This document shows, one piece after another, positions 18,821 to 27,122 of a DNA stretch of 64,000 bases. Position 1 is the first letter of the stretch. Each line of letters begins with the position of its first letter. The notes under the pieces are model-generated. The model saw nothing but the letters and a program-made list of their open reading frames with translations. It made no database searches and was not told the origin of the DNA. Source of the DNA: Aureimonas ureilytica (GTDB lineage Bacteria; Pseudomonadota; Alphaproteobacteria; Rhizobiales; Rhizobiaceae); NCBI RefSeq assembly GCF_001475935.1, contig NZ_LDQA01000021.1:62001-126000 (forward strand). Direction: 5' to 3'. The position numbers and the translations under genes are program-made.

Positions 18821-20431
18821 TCAGTCCTCGTCGGAGGCCATGGCCGAGAGGAGCTTGCCACGGCCCCGAGCGCGCAGGATCATCGGCACGACCAGCGCGA
18901 GGACCGCGAGGGTCAGGAGCGTCACCGCCAGAACCGAGTGAACGAGAATGCTCGGGTCACCCTGGCTGATGGCCAGCGCCCGGCGCAGCTGCTGCTCGGC
19001 CATGGGGCCGAGGATCAGGCCGACCACGACCGGCGCGATCGGATAGCCGAAGCGGCGCAGCATGTAGCCGAGCAGGCCGAACAGAAGCAGCATCCCCAGT
19101 TCCACCGCCGAGGGGTTGGCGCCAATGCAGCCGAGCGTCGCGAAGACGAGGATGCCTGCATAGAGCCAGGGGCGGGGGATCGTGAGCAGCCGGACCCAGA
19201 CGCCGATCAGCGGCAGGTTCAGAACCACCAGCATCAGATTGGCGATCAGAAGGCTGGCGACGAGGCCCCAGACGATCTGCGGTGAGGTGATGAAGAGAAG
19301 CGGGCCGGGCTGAAGACCGAACTGCTGGAAGGCGGCGAGCATGATGGCGGCCGTCGCCGAGGTGGGCAGGCCGAGCGTCAGGAGGGGAACCAGCGTGCCG
19401 GCGGCCGAGGCGTTGTTGGCCGCTTCCGGGCCGGCGACCCCTTCGATCGCGCCATGGCCGAACTCTTCCGGATGCTTGGAAAGGTTCTTTTCCATGGAAT
19501 AAGACAGGAACGTGCCGATCTCGGCGCCGCCCGCCGGCATGGCGCCGATCGGGAAGCCGACCGCCGTGCCGCGCAGCCAGGGCTTCCAGGAGCGCTTCCA
19601 GTCTTCCTTGGTCATCCAGAGCGAGCCCTTCACGGCCTCGATCGTGTCGGGCGTGCGGCTGGCGGCGGCGGCGACCACGAGAGCCTCGCCGATGGCGAAG
19701 AGCGCGACAGCGAGCGTCGTCACTTCGATGCCGTCCAGAAGATTGGCCGAAATGCCGCCGAAGAGCGACGACAGGCTGGCCCAGAGCGCGTGCAGCGGGG
19801 CCGTCGGATCGGCCGCCATCTCACGGAAATATTTGGCGACGGGCGTCAGCGTCAGGCGGGCCTGACCGGTCTGCAGGTCGATGCCGACAAGGCCGAGCGT
19901 CAGGCCGAGCGCGAGGCTGGTGAGCCCGCGCAGCGCCGAGTCGCCGAAGGCCGCCGAGACGGTCACGAAGGCGAGGATCATCAGCGCGAAATATTCGGCC
20001 GGGCCGAAGGACAAGGCGAACGAGACGATGACCGGCGCCAGAAACGCAAGGCCCAGCGTCGCGATCAGGCCGGCAACGAAGGAGCCGATGGCGGCGGTGG
20101 CCAGGGCGGGGCCGCCGCGCCCCTTGCGGGCCATCTTGTTGCCTTCGAGCGCGGTGATGATCGAGGCGCTTTCGCCCGGCGTGTTCAGAAGGATCGAGGT
20201 GGTCGATCCCCCGTACATGCCGCCATAGTAGATGCCGGCGAACATGATCAGCGAGCCGGCGGCGTCGAGCTGGTAGGTGACGGGCAGAAGCAGCGCGACC
20301 GTCAGCGCCGGACCGATGCCCGGAAGCACGCCGACCGCCGTGCCGAGCGTCACGCCGATCAGCGCGTAGAGAAGGTTCATGGGCTGGGAGGCCGTCATGA
20401 GGCCTTGGCCCAGAAGGGCGAATGTATCCAT
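18821..20431 (-). CDS. tctA: Tripartite tricarboxylate transporter, large membrane subunit TctA
   Basis: The large membrane protein of a TTT-family secondary importer (536 residues, about 11-12 helices). Family motifs are clear: [20 protein letters not shown] near the N terminus, [20 protein letters not shown] and, in the second half, [15 protein letters not shown]. It drives uptake of carboxylates delivered by TctC using an ion gradient. ATG 20431 gives the usual N terminus [12 protein letters not shown]; upstream codons are alanine/proline-rich noise. It is the last gene of the tctC-tctB-tctA order, separated from tctB by 239 bases containing a perfect stem-loop. Confidence 0.93.
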
Positions 20432-20639
20432 CGGCAGAACCCATGCGGGAAGGAAGGGGCGAGCCGCAGCGAGGCGGAGCGGATGCGATGCGGTCGGGGC
20501 AGGGGGCGCTGAAGGCGCCGGGGCTCGTCCCGGTCTGCTGTGTTGAAGCGGCTGGCGTCGGCCGGCGAGCCGGGGGAGGCTCAAGGCACTCTCGCCAAAA
20601 GCCTGACTCCAGCGTTGCGTATGCGCTCAAGCGCCGAAT

Positions 20640-20670: not shown

Positions 20671-21150
20671 TTAAAAGAACAGGCGTTCCAGCGGACCCGC
20701 CGGCAGCGACAGGCGCAGAACCTGCGAGAACAGAATCCAGATACCAAGGCTCATGAGAATGCCGAGCGGCACCGAGAGATAGAGCTTTCGCTTGCCGAAG
20801 GCGCGGGCCGTCGCGGCGAAGAGCAGGCCCGTCGCGATCGAGAAGCCCGCCGTGTTCAGAAGGATCAACTGCGCCGCGAGGCCGCCGACGATCCAGGCGA
20901 TGGGGCCGAACTCGTCATGGTCGCGCTCGGGAAACTCGCCGCGCCAGGCCTCGACGATGGTCCAGACCGAGAGCGCGAGAAGCACGGCGGCGATCACATA
21001 CGGAAAAGTCGCCGGGCCGATACGGGCATAGTTGCCGCCACCGATCCCACGCGCGTCCAGCCCGACGAGCAGGCCGAGAATGCCGATGCCGATGCCGATG
21101 GCCAGCGCCGCCCGATCGGGGCGGCGCGCGGGGTTGGACAGGTCGGTCAT
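20671..21150 (-). CDS. tctB: Tripartite tricarboxylate transporter, small membrane subunit TctB
   Basis: A 159-residue membrane protein with four predicted helices (about 15-33, 50-68, 85-115 split, 125-145) and the typical small-subunit motif IGPATFPYVIAAVLL. It partners TctA. The ATG shares one base with the TAA of tctC (TAATG), so the two are translationally coupled. Confidence 0.88.
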   Translation of the reverse strand: MTDLSNPARRPDRAALAIGIGIGILGLLVGLDARGIGGGNYARIGPATFPYVIAAVLLALSVWTIVEAWRGEFPERDHDEFGPIAWIVGGLAAQLILLNTAGFSIATGLLFAATARAFGKRKLYLSVPLGILMSLGIWILFSQVLRLSLPAGPLERLFF

Positions 21151-22106
21151 TACTGGACGAGACCGATCGCGGTGAGCACCTGCTTGGTGTCGGCGATGTT
21201 CTTGGCGAGCTCGGTCTTGAACGCGTCACCGGCAAGGAACGTGTTCTGCCAGTTGTTGCGCTCCAGAACCGCCTTCCACTCAGGGCTGGCGACCATCTTC
21301 TCCAGATTGCCGATCAGCGCGGTCTTCTGCTCGTCCGTGATGCCGGGCGCGCCGGCGACCATGCGCCAGTTCTGAAGGGTCATGTCGATGCCCGACTCCT
21401 TCAGGGTCGGGGCTTGCGAGCCCGCGACGCGCTGTGCGCCCGTGGTGGCGAGCAGGCGCAGCGTGCCCGCCTTGACTTGGCTTTCGAACTCGCCATAGCC
21501 CGAGATGCCGGCCGCGACCTGCTGGCCGAGAATGGCCGCCAGAGCTTCGCCGCCGCCCGAGAAGGCGATGTAGTTGATGGCCTTGGGGTCCGCGCCCACG
21601 GCCTGCGCCAGCAGGCCGGCCGCGATATGGTCCGTGCCGCCGGCCGAGCCGCCCGCGATCGCCACCGCGCCGGGGTTCTGCTTCATGGCCGCAGCCAGAT
21701 CGGCGATCGTCTTGTAGGGGGAGGACGCGGGCACGACGATCGCCTCGTCCTCGCCGGTGAGGCGGGCGAGCGGGGTCACTTCGTCCAGCGTGACGGGCGA
21801 ATTGTTGGTCAGGATCGCACCGACCATGACATAGCCGCCGACGAGCAGCGCGTCCGGGTTGCCGGACTTGGTGGAGACGAACTGCGCGAGGCCGATCGTG
21901 CCGCCGGCGCCCGGAACGTTGATCACCTGCACGTTGCGGGCGAGCTTGGTGTCCTGCAGCACGGTCTGCATGGCGCGGGCCGTCTGGTCCCAGCCGCCGC
22001 CCGGCGAGGCCGGGGCCATGATCTCATAGGCCGGCGCGGTCTGCGCCAGGGCCGAGGTGGAGGCGAGGGCGAGCGCGACGAAGGCGCCGACGATCAAGGA
22101 CTTCAT
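21150..22106 (-). CDS. tctC: Tripartite tricarboxylate transporter, periplasmic binding protein TctC
   Basis: The extracytoplasmic receptor of the TctCBA importer (Bug family, 318 residues). A Sec signal ends at about residue 21 (ALA before Q). The ligand-site motif [17 protein letters not shown] follows at about 31-47, and [11 protein letters not shown]-type and [13 protein letters not shown] loops match Bug proteins. A strong site GGGAGGA lies 6 bases before the ATG. It binds a carboxylate such as citrate or tartrate; the actual ligand is not readable. Tandem direct repeats at 22320-22338 are candidate control sites. Confidence 0.92.
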
Positions 22107-22371
22107 GTGGATTCCTCCCGAAACGAATACCGAATGGTTTTTGGCCGTGGACGGTCAAATCGCAGGGGAAGGGACGCAGCTAAAATCGAAATCGGTTGTG
22201 CCGGCGAATGTCCCTCCAGACATTCGGGCGGCGCGAAACGCGGCTGCAAGCGTTTCGCCGGTCTCCCATCGACTGCACGTCCAGCCTCCCCGGCCGTCGC
22301 GTCCAGACTAGACCCGTGGACCTGTCAAAAACCTGTCAGGCGGCTCGGGTGTTTTGGAATTGTTAAAGGTT
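22107..22371. other. tctC upstream region
   Basis: A 265-base spacer between the kinase/solute-binding fusion and tctC on the minus strand. It holds the direct repeats described at 22320-22338 and a TTGACA hexamer inside the second repeat; no convincing -10 and no other gene are seen. Confidence 0.5.
22320..22338 (-). promoter_or_regulatory. Tandem direct repeats upstream of tctC, candidate response-regulator site
   Basis: On the minus strand TGACAGGT occurs twice with an 11-base period (22331-22338 and 22320-22327), the helical spacing used by OmpR/PhoB-type regulators. The downstream copy contains TTGACA, a possible -35. The site lies 214 bases before tctC; the OmpR-type regulator at 24885-25598 is the obvious candidate ligand. 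Confidence 0.45.
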
Positions 22372-24885
22372 TCAATGAGGGGAGACGATTTCCTGCCATG
22401 TGGCGAGGAAGCGCTCGCGCCGCTGCCGGTCGAGGCCGACGAGAAGCGAGGGGCCGAAGCGGATCGGCTGCACCGCGCCTTGACCGAGCGAGGCGATGCG
22501 ATCGGCCGTCCAGCGCCCGTCCGCGCCGGGCAGAAGCGCGCCAAGCGCGGCCGGGCCGGCGAGGATCGCCTGACCGGCGGGCGAAAGGGCGAACTCGATA
22601 AAGGCTTCGGCGAGTTCGGGCTGCGGGGCGTCCTCGGGGATGAGAAGCGAGCGGGAAAACACGAGCACGTAGTCGTCCGGCACGACGATGCCGATCGGCG
22701 CGCCCGCATCGGCCCGCGCGAAGGCATAGGAGCCGATGATATTGTAGCCCATCGCGAGATCCCCCGTCGCGATCCGGTCGAGGATTTCGGGGCTGGAAGC
22801 CGTGAGTTGCACCCGCGCTCGCCCGAAGGCGGCGGCCAGACGCCAGAAATAGGAGGAGATGGCCTGATCCTGCGTCGCCAGGAGATAGCCGACGCCGCTG
22901 CGCGCGACATCATAGGTGCCCACGCGCCCCAGAAAGCGCTGCGGCTCGCGCTCCAGAAGCTCGGCCAGTTCCAGATGGGTGCGCGGCGCTTCCTCGGGCT
23001 TCACGAGGTTGGTGTTGTAGACGATCACGGCCGGCTCGAAGGTGAAGCCGAAGACCTCCGAGCGCCAGCGCGCCCAGTCGGGAATCGCGGCGAGCCGCGT
23101 CGGCGCAAACGGGCGCACCAGCCCTTCGTTGACGAGCTTCACCTGAAGATCGGAGGCCGAACTGACCACGAGATCGGGCGCGGCCTTCTGCCCCGACACC
23201 AGCTGGTCATAGACCGCCCGGCTTTCGTTTTCCTCGTAAGCAACGGCGATGGTCGGATGGGCCGCCTGAAAGGCACGGATGAGATGGGAGAAAAGCCCCG
23301 TGTCGGTCGCGCCCAGAATGTGAAGCGTGGCCGCCGCCGGCTTTTCGCGCGCTGGGAAGTCGGCGGCCGCCTCGGCCGGGCGTGGGGCGGAAAACGCGCC
23401 AGCGAAGGCGGTGAGCAGCGCCAGGAGGGCGAGCACGTGGCGGCGATCCGGCGCTGGCAGCTGTGAAACCGGCGCGGCCTCGGCCGGCAAGCGAAGATGC
23501 ACGGCGAGCCCGCCGCCTTCGCGGTCACGCAGCAGCACCGCGCCGCGATGGGCCTCGGCCACGCGCGCGACGATGGCTAGCCCCAGGCCCGAGCCGCCCC
23601 GGTCGATCCGCGCGCCCGCCTCACCCCGGCGAAAGCGGCCGAAGACGAGAGGCTTCTCATGGTCGGGAATGCCCGGACCCCGGTCGCGCACGGCGATGTC
23701 GAGCGCCGGGCCGTCCCGCGCAATCGAAATCTCCACCTCGCCTTCGCTGTAGCGCAGGGCATTGTCCACGAGGTTGCGGATGGCTTCGCGCAGCACCACG
23801 CGATCGACGCTCAAGTTCGCATCCGCAGCATCGGGCGCAATGGCAAGGATCACCCGGTCGGACAGATCGGGGCTGAGGCGGCGCACCACTTCCTGCGCCA
23901 GTGGGGCGACGGGTGTGGGCTCTGGCTGGTTTTCGAGACGATGGGTCACCGTCGCGTCCATCAGAAGCTGCGAGACGAGCTGGCTCGCCTGCACGGCCCC
24001 CTCGTGAATGCGCTCCACGTCGCGCCGCAGCGCCGCCGGGTCGCGCTCGGCCAGCGCCAGCTCGGCCTGCGCGCGCAGCGAGGCCAAGGGCGTTCGCACC
24101 TCATGGGCGGCCTCGGCCACCAGCGCCTCCAGCCGCTCGCGCGCGAGCTTCAGTCGGGCGGTGAAACCGTTCAGCGCTCCGACGAGCTGCGCGGTCTCGG
24201 ACGGGGCGGGGAGTTCGACGGGCGAGAGATCGTCGGGCGAGCGCTCGCGCAGGTGCTTTTCCAGCGACAGGAGCGGAGCGAAGGCGCGCCCGATCCCGGC
24301 CCAGAGCAGAAGCAGCGCCAGAAGCGTCAGAAGAAGGATCGGCCAGAGCGCGTTGTGGAGGATTTCGCGCGCCAAGGCGTCCCGCTCGCCCCGCGTTTCG
24401 GCGACGCGGATCGTCACCCATCCCGTGCCCTCGGCGGTGGAAACGAGCCGCCCGACGCTCGCCACGCGCACTCGATCGTCGCGGAACGCCTTGTCGGCGA
24501 AAACGGGATCGCCGCCCGTCGCAGGCGCCAAGCCGTCCGACAGGTCGGCTTCGCCCGTGACGTTTTCTCCTTGCGGCGACTCCACGGCGTAGAAAATCCG
24601 ATCCTCGCCCGAGAACATGGCGAAGGAGGCGAGCGGCAGTTCCACCGTCACGCGCCCGGCCTCCAGCTGCACCGCGCCGCCGATCGTCAGCGCGGAGGCG
24701 GCGAGCAGCCGGTCGAAGGCTCGGTCCGAGGCGCGTTCGGCATAATCGCGAACATAGAGAACCAGCGCGAAGGCGGCGGCTAGAAGCAGCGCGCCGCCGA
24801 AGACGAGAATGCGCTTGCGGATCGAGACCGGGCGTTTGGCCCGCGCGGTCTTGCGCCGATCCGCGCGGGCGAAGGTCGGCGGCAT
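22372..24885 (-). CDS. Sensor histidine kinase fused to a C-terminal extracellular solute-binding domain
   Basis: An 837-residue single frame. Part 1 is a TctE/QseC-like kinase: helix at about 28-48, periplasmic N-terminal sensor, second helix near 170-190, HAMP, HisKA with phosphoacceptor near His261 (AHEVRTPLASL), HATPase_c with N box RNLVDNALRYS and G box GSGLGLAIV. It would normally end near residue 470. The frame instead runs on through RRHVLALLALLTAFAG (residues ~482-497), which looks like a signal peptide, into a complete family 1 (iron/AfuA-like) binding protein. As one chain this gives a third membrane span and a periplasmic C terminus. The ATG shares one base with the response-regulator stop. 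A separate start at the internal GTG cannot be excluded. Confidence 0.82.
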   Translation of the reverse strand: MPPTFARADRRKTARAKRPVSIRKRILVFGGALLLAAAFALVLYVRDYAERASDRAFDRLLAASALTIGGAVQLEAGRVTVELPLASFAMFSGEDRIFYAVESPQGENVTGEADLSDGLAPATGGDPVFADKAFRDDRVRVASVGRLVSTAEGTGWVTIRVAETRGERDALAREILHNALWPILLLTLLALLLLWAGIGRAFAPLLSLEKHLRERSPDDLSPVELPAPSETAQLVGALNGFTARLKLARERLEALVAEAAHEVRTPLASLRAQAELALAERDPAALRRDVERIHEGAVQASQLVSQLLMDATVTHRLENQPEPTPVAPLAQEVVRRLSPDLSDRVILAIAPDAADANLSVDRVVLREAIRNLVDNALRYSEGEVEISIARDGPALDIAVRDRGPGIPDHEKPLVFGRFRRGEAGARIDRGGSGLGLAIVARVAEAHRGAVLLRDREGGGLAVHLRLPAEAAPVSQLPAPDRRHVLALLALLTAFAGAFSAPRPAEAAADFPAREKPAAATLHILGATDTGLFSHLIRAFQAAHPTIAVAYEENESRAVYDQLVSGQKAAPDLVVSSASDLQVKLVNEGLVRPFAPTRLAAIPDWARWRSEVFGFTFEPAVIVYNTNLVKPEEAPRTHLELAELLEREPQRFLGRVGTYDVARSGVGYLLATQDQAISSYFWRLAAAFGRARVQLTASSPEILDRIATGDLAMGYNIIGSYAFARADAGAPIGIVVPDDYVLVFSRSLLIPEDAPQPELAEAFIEFALSPAGQAILAGPAALGALLPGADGRWTADRIASLGQGAVQPIRFGPSLLVGLDRQRRERFLATWQEIVSPH

Positions 24886-25598
24886 CAACCGCCCAGCCGC
24901 TCGCCGGTCGCCTTCGGCTTGCCGGCAGGCTCGCCGGCGACGCGCGCGACATAGCCCGCCCCGCGCACGGTGGCGATTTCCACCGAGGCGCCTTCCAGCT
25001 TGCGGCGCAGGCGCGAGACGTAAAGCTCCAGCGCGTTGGTCGAGACCATCTCGTCATAGGAGAAGAGCTGCGCCATCAGCTGCTCCTTCTGCACCACGAC
25101 GCCTGGCTTCGAGAGAAGGATTTCGAGCAGGCGAAACTCGCGCCGGCCAAGATCCACAGCCCGGCCGCCGACGGTGACGAGATGGCCCGCCATGTCCATT
25201 TCCACGTTGCCGACCCGCGCCAGACTGGTGGTCTGCCCGGCCGGGCGGCGCAGGAGGGCGCGCAGCCGCGCTTCCAACTCCCGCAGGTCGAAGGGTTTGA
25301 CGAGATAATCGTCCGCGCCTTGATCCAGAAGGCTGATCTTGTCGTCGATCTCGGCCCGCGCGGTGACAACCAGAACCGGCACGCTGGAGCGCCCGCGCCT
25401 CAGCTCCGCGATCACGGAAAGCCCGTCGCGCCCCGGCAGCGAGAGATCGAGGATCACCGCGTCGAACGGCTCCAGCGCGAAGGCTTCCAGCGCATCCTCG
25501 CCCGAGCGCACCCATTCGACCGAATGGCCGGCATTGCGCAGGTGCCGGTTCACCGCGTCGCCCAGCCCCTCATTGTCTTCCACCAGAAGCATACGCAT
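24885..25598 (-). CDS. OmpR-family response regulator (TctD-like)
   Basis: A 237-residue two-domain regulator: receiver with VEDNEGLG pocket, phosphoacceptor Asp51 (VILDLSLPGRDG) and Lys in VKPFDL, then a winged-helix Trans_reg_C domain (about 130-222) with STNALELYVSRLRRKL and TVRGAGYV. It is coupled to the kinase/binding fusion by a TGATG overlap and precedes tctCBA on the same strand, matching tctDE-tctCBA systems where the pair controls carboxylate uptake. ATG 25598 gives the standard N terminus MRMLLVEDN. A 14-bp palindrome lies 64 bases upstream. Confidence 0.92.
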   Translation of the reverse strand: MRMLLVEDNEGLGDAVNRHLRNAGHSVEWVRSGEDALEAFALEPFDAVILDLSLPGRDGLSVIAELRRGRSSVPVLVVTARAEIDDKISLLDQGADDYLVKPFDLRELEARLRALLRRPAGQTTSLARVGNVEMDMAGHLVTVGGRAVDLGRREFRLLEILLSKPGVVVQKEQLMAQLFSYDEMVSTNALELYVSRLRRKLEGASVEIATVRGAGYVARVAGEPAGKPKATGERLGG

Positions 25599-25796: not shown

Positions 25797-27122
25797 ATGG
25801 ACAAGATCGCGCGCGTGGGCCTTGCGGCCGAACTTCTGGCCTATGCGCAGGAGCGCGGTCCCGTCACGGTCGGCCTTGCCGGTGCGGGCCAGATGGGCAC
25901 CGATCTCATGGTTCAGCTTCTCCTGATGCCGGGCGTCCGGCTGGGCGCGGTCTCGACCTCCAAGGCCGACCGCGCGCGAGAGACGTTGCGCTTTGCCGGC
26001 TACGAGGCGGGCGCGGGCCGCTCGGCCGAAACCCCCGCCACTGTCGATGCCGCGATTGAGGCCGGCGATGTCGCCGTCGTCGAGGATTTTCGCACCTTCT
26101 GCGCGGCGGGGCGGATCGATGTCGTGATCGACGCGACGGGCAGCCCGAGCGCGGGCACGCGCATCGCGCTCGAAGCCTTTCGCAACGGCAAGCATGTGGT
26201 CATGCTGAATGTCGAGGCCGACATCACGATCGGCCGCTATCTCAAGGCCGAGGCCAAGCGCGCGGGCGTCGTCTATACGGGCGCGGCCGGCGACGAGCCG
26301 CAATCGACCATCGAGCTGATCGGCCTTGCCCAGTCGCTCGGGCTCGACATCGTCTGCGCCGGCAAGGGCAAGAACAACGCGCTCGATTTCTCCGCCGTGC
26401 CCGCCGACTACGAGGCGGAAGCGGCGCGGCGCAACATGAATGCGCGCATGTTGGTTGAGTTCGTGGACGGCTCCAAGACCATGGTGGAAATGACCGCCAT
26501 CGCCAATGCGACGGGCCTCAAACCCGACGTGCCGGGCATGCACGGGCCGGACGCCTCGTCCGAGCGGCTGGCGCAGGTTCTCTGCTCGAAGGAGGATGGC
26601 GGCATTCTTTCGCGCCCCGGCTGCGTCGATTACACGATCGGCAAGGGCGTCGCGCCCGGCGTCTTCTGCATCGTGAAGCCCCGGCACCCGCGCATTCTGG
26701 AGCGCATCGCCGATCTCAAGGTCGGCCCCGGCCCCTGCTTCGCCCTCTACCGCCCGTTCCACCTCACCTCGATCGAGGTGCCGCTGTCCGCGATCCATGC
26801 CGTGATGCGCGGCACGCCGCATCTGGAGCCGCTCGATCATCCGGTCGGCGAATGCATCGCCGTCGCCAAGCGTGACCTGGCCGTGGGCGAGACGCTCGGG
26901 CGCATCGGCGAAACCCAGTATCGCGGCTTCGCCATGACCTGGGAGGACGCCCGCGCGGCCGGCGGCCTGCCGCTGGGTCTGGCCGAGGGCGGCGTGGTGA
27001 CGAAAGCGATCAAGGCCGGCGAAAAGCTCACCTACGCCAATTGCGAGCCCGACGCCTCGCTGGAGGTCACGCAGATTCGTAAGCTTCTGGACACGGCGGA
27101 TGCGCGGTTCGTCGGGGCGTGA
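25797..27122 (+). CDS. NAD(P)-dependent oxidoreductase with homoserine-dehydrogenase-like fold and C-terminal SAF domain
   Basis: A 441-residue protein. The N terminus is a Rossmann fold (GLAGAGQMGTDLM, about residues 25-37), followed by GTRIALEAFRNGKHVVMLN and VYTGAAGDEPQS, as in the DRL-like/homoserine-dehydrogenase-related oxidoreductases. The last ~90 residues (AVAKRDLAVGETLGRIG, VVTKAIKAGEKLTYANC) match a SAF domain. Homologues are often annotated vaguely as oxidoreductase or FlgA-like SAF protein; the substrate is unknown. Its divergence from the tct regulator suggests, weakly, a role in handling an imported acid. It ends one base before the next gene. Confidence 0.8.
   Translation: MDKIARVGLAAELLAYAQERGPVTVGLAGAGQMGTDLMVQLLLMPGVRLGAVSTSKADRARETLRFAGYEAGAGRSAETPATVDAAIEAGDVAVVEDFRTFCAAGRIDVVIDATGSPSAGTRIALEAFRNGKHVVMLNVEADITIGRYLKAEAKRAGVVYTGAAGDEPQSTIELIGLAQSLGLDIVCAGKGKNNALDFSAVPADYEAEAARRNMNARMLVEFVDGSKTMVEMTAIANATGLKPDVPGMHGPDASSERLAQVLCSKEDGGILSRPGCVDYTIGKGVAPGVFCIVKPRHPRILERIADLKVGPGPCFALYRPFHLTSIEVPLSAIHAVMRGTPHLEPLDHPVGECIAVAKRDLAVGETLGRIGETQYRGFAMTWEDARAAGGLPLGLAEGGVVTKAIKAGEKLTYANCEPDASLEVTQIRKLLDTADARFVGA

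Follow-up and report, generated by a model that had tools for sequence, protein, structure and literature searches.

In Bordetella pertussis, the citrate-loaded solute-binding protein (SBP) BctC is reported, in passages of PMC5812351 and PMC9602780, to stimulate the kinase BctE of the BctDE-BctC system. Kinases known to be stimulated by an SBP are few, as only about ten characterised cases are counted in the consulted part of PMC9602780. An SBP-like fold and a kinase also share one chain in BvgS and EvgS, which an excerpt of PMC8534201 describes as kinases with periplasmic flytrap domains; going by this excerpt, these domains precede the kinase core and act as its sensor. Here we describe a locus of Aureimonas ureilytica, located in a stretch of 64,000 nucleotides (the window), which can be compared to both. 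As in BctDE-BctC, a TctE-family kinase adjoins a tripartite tricarboxylate transporter. However, BctC is the transporter's own TctC-family SBP and is encoded by a separate gene, whereas the SBP fused behind the kinase here is a second one, of MctA type. As in the excerpted accounts of BvgS and EvgS, an SBP-like fold and a kinase are found in one chain, but a signal peptide separates the SBP from the ATPase domain that it follows, and, unlike BvgS and EvgS as described there, the fused kinase keeps its own 2CSK_N sensor. Open-literature searches found no study of such a kinase-SBP fusion. Its parts are known, and RefSeq-derived records list the fusion without any remark. Five plasmid records were opened, and in each the fused frame is a single CDS named 'extracellular solute-binding protein' for the whole protein, so the kinase was missed in annotation. 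Moreover, the relevant section of an Azospirillum survey lists SBP_bac_1 among the domains of classic histidine kinases (PMC4618731), so that, as far as this section goes, the architecture has already been counted, probably including this protein.

The fused gene is a single open reading frame on the minus strand (22372-24885) in which a TctE-type histidine kinase runs on into a complete SBP. A first-pass annotation of the same DNA had reported one unbroken frame at these coordinates, which we can confirm once the strand is corrected to minus, since the plus-strand reading of the interval is broken by stops. Translation starts either at ATG 24885, giving 837 residues, or at TTG 24888, giving 838, and ends with the stop at 22374-22372; residues are numbered here on the 838-residue version, and the ATG version is obtained by subtracting one. 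Pfam assigns 2CSK_N, a periplasmic sensor domain (PF08521), to residues 36-176 (24361-24783), HisKA to residues 254-312 (23953-24129, with the phospho-acceptor His262 in AHEVRTPL), HATPase_c to residues 362-470 (23479-23805) and SBP_bac families to positions within 530-786, all on the minus strand. In NCBIfam searches, the matches listed for the fused protein were to kinase families, all of them under the curated cut-offs. The H, N, G1 and G2 boxes are all intact, and in the predicted structure model the helices that bear TM1 and TM2 comprise residues 23-71 and 167-214. The first 470 residues are thus a complete TctE-type kinase with 2CSK_N, HisKA and HATPase_c domains, and residues 508-838 (22375-23367, minus strand) a complete SBP, which structure comparison assigns to a predicted MctA-type citrate-binding domain. 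Between the two lies an internal signal peptide (residues 481-507, DRRHVLALLALLTAFAGAFSAPRPAEA; 23368-23448, minus strand), whose predicted signal peptidase I cut falls after Ala507, between bases 23368 and 23367; the first pass had noticed a signal-peptide-like stretch at residues 482-505.

The neighbouring genes on the minus strand complete the picture of a TctE-type system. Upstream, a tctD-like regulator of the OmpR family (237 residues, 24885-25598), for which the open reading frame and the start were located, overlaps by its stop the ATG of the fused gene in the sequence TGATG. Downstream follow tctC, the SBP gene of the tripartite tricarboxylate transporter (21150-22106, PF03401), tctB (20671-21150, PF07331) and tctA (18821-20584, PF01970 at residues 71-520 of the frame), whose true start, judged from the translation, is probably the ATG at about 20431. 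The fused gene therefore sits between tctD and tctCBA, the latter being genes that the first pass had thought it could control, and the window contains the three kinase domains with their boxes, an OmpR-type regulator partner and an adjoining tctCBA. The divergent neighbour of tctD (25797-27122) encodes a DRL_cat oxidoreductase whose NAD domain resembles that of homoserine dehydrogenase. Between 21900 and 25900 Rfam gave no match at gathering scores, and neither promoter nor terminator was found in a scan of 22050-22420.

The fusion is not restricted to the window. Within the genus Aureimonas the SBP was found in 20 of 21 genomes (genome G401 had no match); apart from the window's own locus there are 19, each an in-frame fusion with a kinase. 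The fusion recurs in Devosia, Alsobacter, Alcaligenaceae, Azospirillum and Rhodobacterales, and in other lineages a separate SBP gene lies directly 3' of the kinase gene. In total we examined 117 loci, consisting of the best 80 of 194 matches, 21 loci from the genus search and 16 further regions, of which 15 were picked for long frames or high identity and one, L126, served as a control. This sample, fetched by means of the SBP, is biased to close relatives and long frames, and within it 81 loci are fused, 33 have a separate SBP right after the kinase, as the first pass had expected of related systems, and three are different. In all, the kinase has an SBP behind it, whether fused or as its own gene, in 114 of the 117 loci, a count that reflects retrieval by SBP and the partial choice of long frames. 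A tctD homologue is found upstream in 58 of the 81 fused loci, and in the other 23 the stored DNA is too short on this side. The separate tctD-tctE-SBP loci of Hyphomicrobiales and other Pseudomonadota (L066-L067, L069-L088 and others) share the kinase and SBP families and their order with the fused ones and often adjoin tct genes, but differ in having two genes and an SBP with an N-terminal signal peptide.

A less biased sample of the order gave an SBP relative in 111 of 397 genomes. Its 18 matches at 54% identity or more, the window's own included, all lie in frames of at least 819 residues, and most matches below 54% lie in frames of ordinary SBP length. Among these 18, the kinase was confirmed directly in the window and in L122, L123 and L124, as it was in the more distant L112 and L114. 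A long open frame was rejected as a sign of fusion, since among the 15 picked regions five are fused and ten are separate genes with a frame that is long by chance. Around genome G596, 200 sampled genomes of the family gave no match above 45% identity, and among 87 genomes around G254 the long frame occurs in G254 only, so the lineage of L129 is small. Two more fusions, L148 and L152, were found in 385 genomes of the class. One Aureimonas genome (G402) has, in addition to the usual fused gene, a second, divergent one (L110:117-3873) that adjoins another SBP gene.

The history of the fusion was traced on a tree of 84 SBP sequences, from which 32 near-duplicates and the long-branched L110 were left out; the fused L148 and L152 lie outside it. 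On this tree the fused state changes four times, and at least three of the changes are forced by well-supported branches, although change counts on the tree alone cannot tell gain from loss. There is one large fused clade, which includes Aureimonas, Devosia, Alsobacter, Alcaligenaceae and others, and a second, distant fused group (L114, L129, L130) beside the separate relative L116. Nested in the fused Devosia clade with support 99/96 are two loci, L048 (5952-8468) and L053 (5900-8428), with the gene order tctD, SBP, kinase and an SBP that is free and has a signal peptide of its own. Compared by eye, the ends of their kinases (VVGRSAVNKLLADAGKRLS, VVGRSVINKLLQDADQKHSA) resemble the start and n-region of the fused junction (VGRNPKVEQLRKALGSLS and similar), which is what would be expected if a fusion had been taken apart. 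In these two loci the sequences thus suggest an apparent reversal of the fusion, in which the SBP was freed again.

The SBP model (pLDDT 95.6) is nearest to MctA, with a Z score of 45.4 and an rmsd of 1.5 over 318 aligned residues, followed by the Agrobacterium protein 3c9h (Z 44.9). It is like MctA (PDB 7f6e and others) and 3c9h over the whole fold (Z 45), at 33-38% identity and in most site residues. The solved structures of both are of single SBPs that take their name from an ABC transporter, and no kinase appears in the entry names. The AfuA or iron-type label that the first pass had given to this half does not stand: AfuA reaches Z 30.7 and ferric-binding (FbpA-type) proteins 29.3 and below, against 45 for the metal-citrate protein MctA; all of them have the general fold in common. 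According to the titles of the MctA entries, the variants S79A, S164A, T199A and Y221A/F are apo, D28A holds citrate and S26A holds Mg-citrate. The positions S79, S164, T199, Y221, D28 and S26 correspond to S577, S664, S699, Y721, D529 and A527 of the fused protein, four of the six being identical, with Ser in place of T199 and Ala in place of S26; at the last of these, Ala527, the MctA variant S26A still held Mg-citrate by its title. Across 82 fused sequences, the equivalents of S79, S164, T199, Y221 and D28 are Ser in 81, Ser in 79, Ser in 70 and Thr in 11, Tyr in 81 and Asp in 80, respectively. We infer from this that the SBP half is of the citrate type and that its ligand is citrate.

Gene context was surveyed in the 56 fused loci among the best 80 of the 194 matches: tct genes lie downstream in 33, and none were seen in the stored downstream flank of the other 23. 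On a plasmid of Azospirillum thermophilum (L131, 3492-10978) the fused gene is followed by genes for malic enzyme and a fumarylacetoacetate hydrolase family protein and by the citrate lyase genes citC and citD, and a CitG gene adjoins L112. The scanned neighbours of L042, L026 and L060 are unrelated and include no citrate genes; the Devosia riboflavina locus has a gene that matches the aminoglycoside/hydroxyurea phosphotransferase family (L042:782-1750). In two Alcaligenaceae loci (L058:7205-11273, L056:7137-8291) a second MctA-type SBP gene comes after the fused kinase. The one of Achromobacter pulmonis (L058) encodes a protein 32% identical to the window's SBP and is followed by an ABC permease and an ATPase, and the three together may form an ABC transporter for citrate that the fused sensor controls.

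The gap between the fused gene and tctC contains a perfect copy of the repeat TGACAG-N5-TGACAG, read towards tctC (22322-22338, minus strand; CTGTCAAAAACCTGTCA on the plus strand). Of 83 distinct regions upstream of tctC, many of them from close relatives, 74 contain the repeat with at most two mismatches (mean 0.75 mismatches, compared to 4.05 in shuffles), and it precedes tctC in fused and separate systems alike. Nine of the 83 regions (L063, L070-L074, L077, L088, L124) lack it at this threshold. The repeat is not enriched genome-wide, with 11 sites at one mismatch or fewer versus nine for the reversed pattern, or in the 64-kb window, with one site versus 2.47 expected, so what speaks for an operator is its conserved position only. 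Judged by this, TGACAG-N5-TGACAG before tctC is probably a TctD operator. For Pseudomonas aeruginosa, the consulted part of PMC4513871 places a TctD motif before opdH-tctCBA. The 11-base phase of the repeat resembles the PhoB box, in which two GTCAT-type boxes lie 5 bases apart. The only other exact copies of CTGTCA-N5-CTGTCA in the window's genome (G000:C98:19763-19779 and G000:C106:9881-9897) may be PhoB-type sites.

We then turn to the joint between kinase and SBP, which was analysed in 74 fused proteins of the main clade, 72 of them measurable. The maximal 19-residue hydropathy of the junction averages 1.96 (sd 0.29); TM1 and TM2 reach 3.02 and 2.54, and the signal peptides of 35 free SBPs 1.82. 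As a control we used TM1, which has the same orientation as the junction and must not be cut. A strict Ala-x-Ala motif follows the hydrophobic core in 60 of the 72 junctions, against 11 of the 72 TM1 segments of the same proteins. When the sequences are aligned on the mature N-terminus (69 of 74; five have no anchor), the Ala frequencies at positions -3, -2 and -1 are 0.64, 0.14 and 0.77. Compared with shuffles of the same residues, the motif occurs in 63 of 77 fused proteins, where 45.6 ± 3.5 (largest 56) are obtained by shuffling; for the separate SBPs the values are 23 of 33 and 19.2 ± 2.3, which is not significant. Since these SBPs, although surely exported, do not beat their shuffles, the strict test is weak by itself, and a looser motif is uninformative (77 of 77 fused proteins, 76.0 in shuffles). 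The strict motif is missing in about one sixth of the fused proteins. The smaller fusion lineages keep it, as PAAA-Q, PAQA-E and RAEA-D and, in the search that yielded L148 and L152, as AGA-Q and AFA-F. The linker from the ATPase domain to the signal peptide varies freely in length, and residues 471-505 of the model have a pLDDT below 50. As expected of a polyprotein, an internal hydrophobic segment with a conserved signal peptidase I motif thus precedes the mature domain. By these sequence features the joint looks like an ordinary cleavable Sec signal peptide, unlike the true membrane anchors of the kinase. The first pass had envisaged a third membrane span and a binding domain outside the cell; the hydrophobic segment exists, but its features are those of a cleavable signal peptide, and the SBP should indeed lie beyond the membrane.

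From these results we propose the following mechanism. One chain would be translated that consists of a TctE-type kinase, anchored by two membrane helices and bearing 2CSK_N, and an MctA-type SBP with its own signal peptide. The internal signal peptide behind the ATPase domain would enter the Sec translocon and bring the SBP to the periplasm, where signal peptidase I would most likely cut after Ala-Glu-Ala (residues 505-507) and free it. The citrate-loaded SBP would then dock on the 2CSK_N domain, and the kinase would phosphorylate TctD, which in turn would bind the TGACAG-N5-TGACAG repeat and turn on tctCBA; transport itself would be served by the TctC of that operon. What was observed directly is the fusion with its recurrence, the fold and site residues of the SBP, the gene context and the conservation of both signal peptide and repeat; that citrate is the ligand, that the chain is cut, that the SBP docks and that regulation follows are steps we infer. 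On balance we consider the whole picture probable: signal peptidase would split a polyprotein into a kinase and the periplasmic citrate receptor by which this kinase is stimulated. The likelihoods that we attach to it and to the smaller rivals are judgement values and overlap. A membrane protein that shares one translated chain with an exported protein, and is separated from it by cleavage at an internal signal peptide, is known from FbcH, the cytochrome b/c1 precursor of Bradyrhizobium; FbcH is a respiratory enzyme, whereas the fused kinase-SBP is a sensor.

The main alternative is that the chain stays uncut, the junction forming a permanent third helix that keeps the SBP on the kinase as a built-in receptor at a ratio of 1:1. 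This would explain why the fusion persists, and it fits the single stop-free polypeptide of the 81 fused loci (of 117) as well as the freely varying linker length, which a tether may allow; a hydropathy of 1.96 also suffices for a membrane helix. However, a permanent anchor has no need of a fixed Ala-x-Ala with a free middle residue, which is kept down to 47% identity, TM1 and TM2 in the same chains are more hydrophobic than the junction, and the two nested Devosia loci manage without a tether. The full-length model also has no confident third helix (pLDDT below 50 at residues 471-505), which is weak evidence. An uncut sensor is thus possible, if somewhat doubtful, and cleavage seems the likelier fate of the chain because of the conserved Ala-x-Ala and a hydropathy that resembles that of free SBPs and lies below that of TM1 and TM2. 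A separate SBP could also arise if ribosomes initiated anew at an in-frame GTG or TTG upstream of the signal peptide. By raw counts, 68 of 74 fused genes have a start codon in the 30 codons that precede the hydrophobic core, and the window has a GTG and a TTG upstream of the core and a GTG at the core, but an ATG is found there in just 27 of the 74, and Shine-Dalgarno matches of five or more bases in six and of four bases in 22, again as raw counts. None of the window's three candidates reaches a four-base match. An internal start with a ribosome site, which the first pass had named as a possible objection to the fusion, is therefore not conserved among the 74 genes; as a general mechanism we reject it, ribosome-site matches being rare, and we hold it to be very improbable.

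Another reading takes the SBP mainly for a scavenging transport protein that is co-made with the kinase without being its receptor. Close relatives of the SBP are indeed named as transport proteins (MctA), and in the Achromobacter locus the 32%-identical paralogue has an ABC permease and an ATPase just downstream. Yet that ABC system has its own SBP, the transporter adjoining the fused gene in the window is tripartite with its own TctC, and the SBP tracks the kinase in 114 of 117 loci, albeit loci fetched by the SBP and partly picked for long frames. We regard a mainly scavenging role as improbable. Finally, the stop between two genes might have been deleted by an assembly or sequencing error; nothing found speaks for this in the window's genome, a draft of 183 contigs. 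The same open frame is common to 19 other genomes of the genus and to further genera, in some cases in annotated plasmid records, which makes such an error practically negligible. The first pass had proposed to look for the fusion in relatives, and it recurs in frame across species and genera; this excludes an indel that removed a stop, and, with 81 of 117 loci fused, homologues are not always two proteins either.

Returning to the polyprotein cut by signal peptidase, our analysis leans towards a bacterial signalling polyprotein, in which a sensor kinase and a diffusible ligand receptor would be made from one gene and separated by signal peptidase I, and which would have arisen more than once, with the cut site kept each time, and been undone in some Devosia. 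Made from one gene and then cut, kinase and receptor would always be produced at 1:1. If the junction is cut, this is a bacterial signalling polyprotein; if it is not, it is a kinase with its receptor behind the catalytic domain. The balance between receptor and kinase is hard to study in SBP-stimulated kinases, and one and the same citrate system occurs here fused, separate and separated again, which makes the value of the link directly testable.
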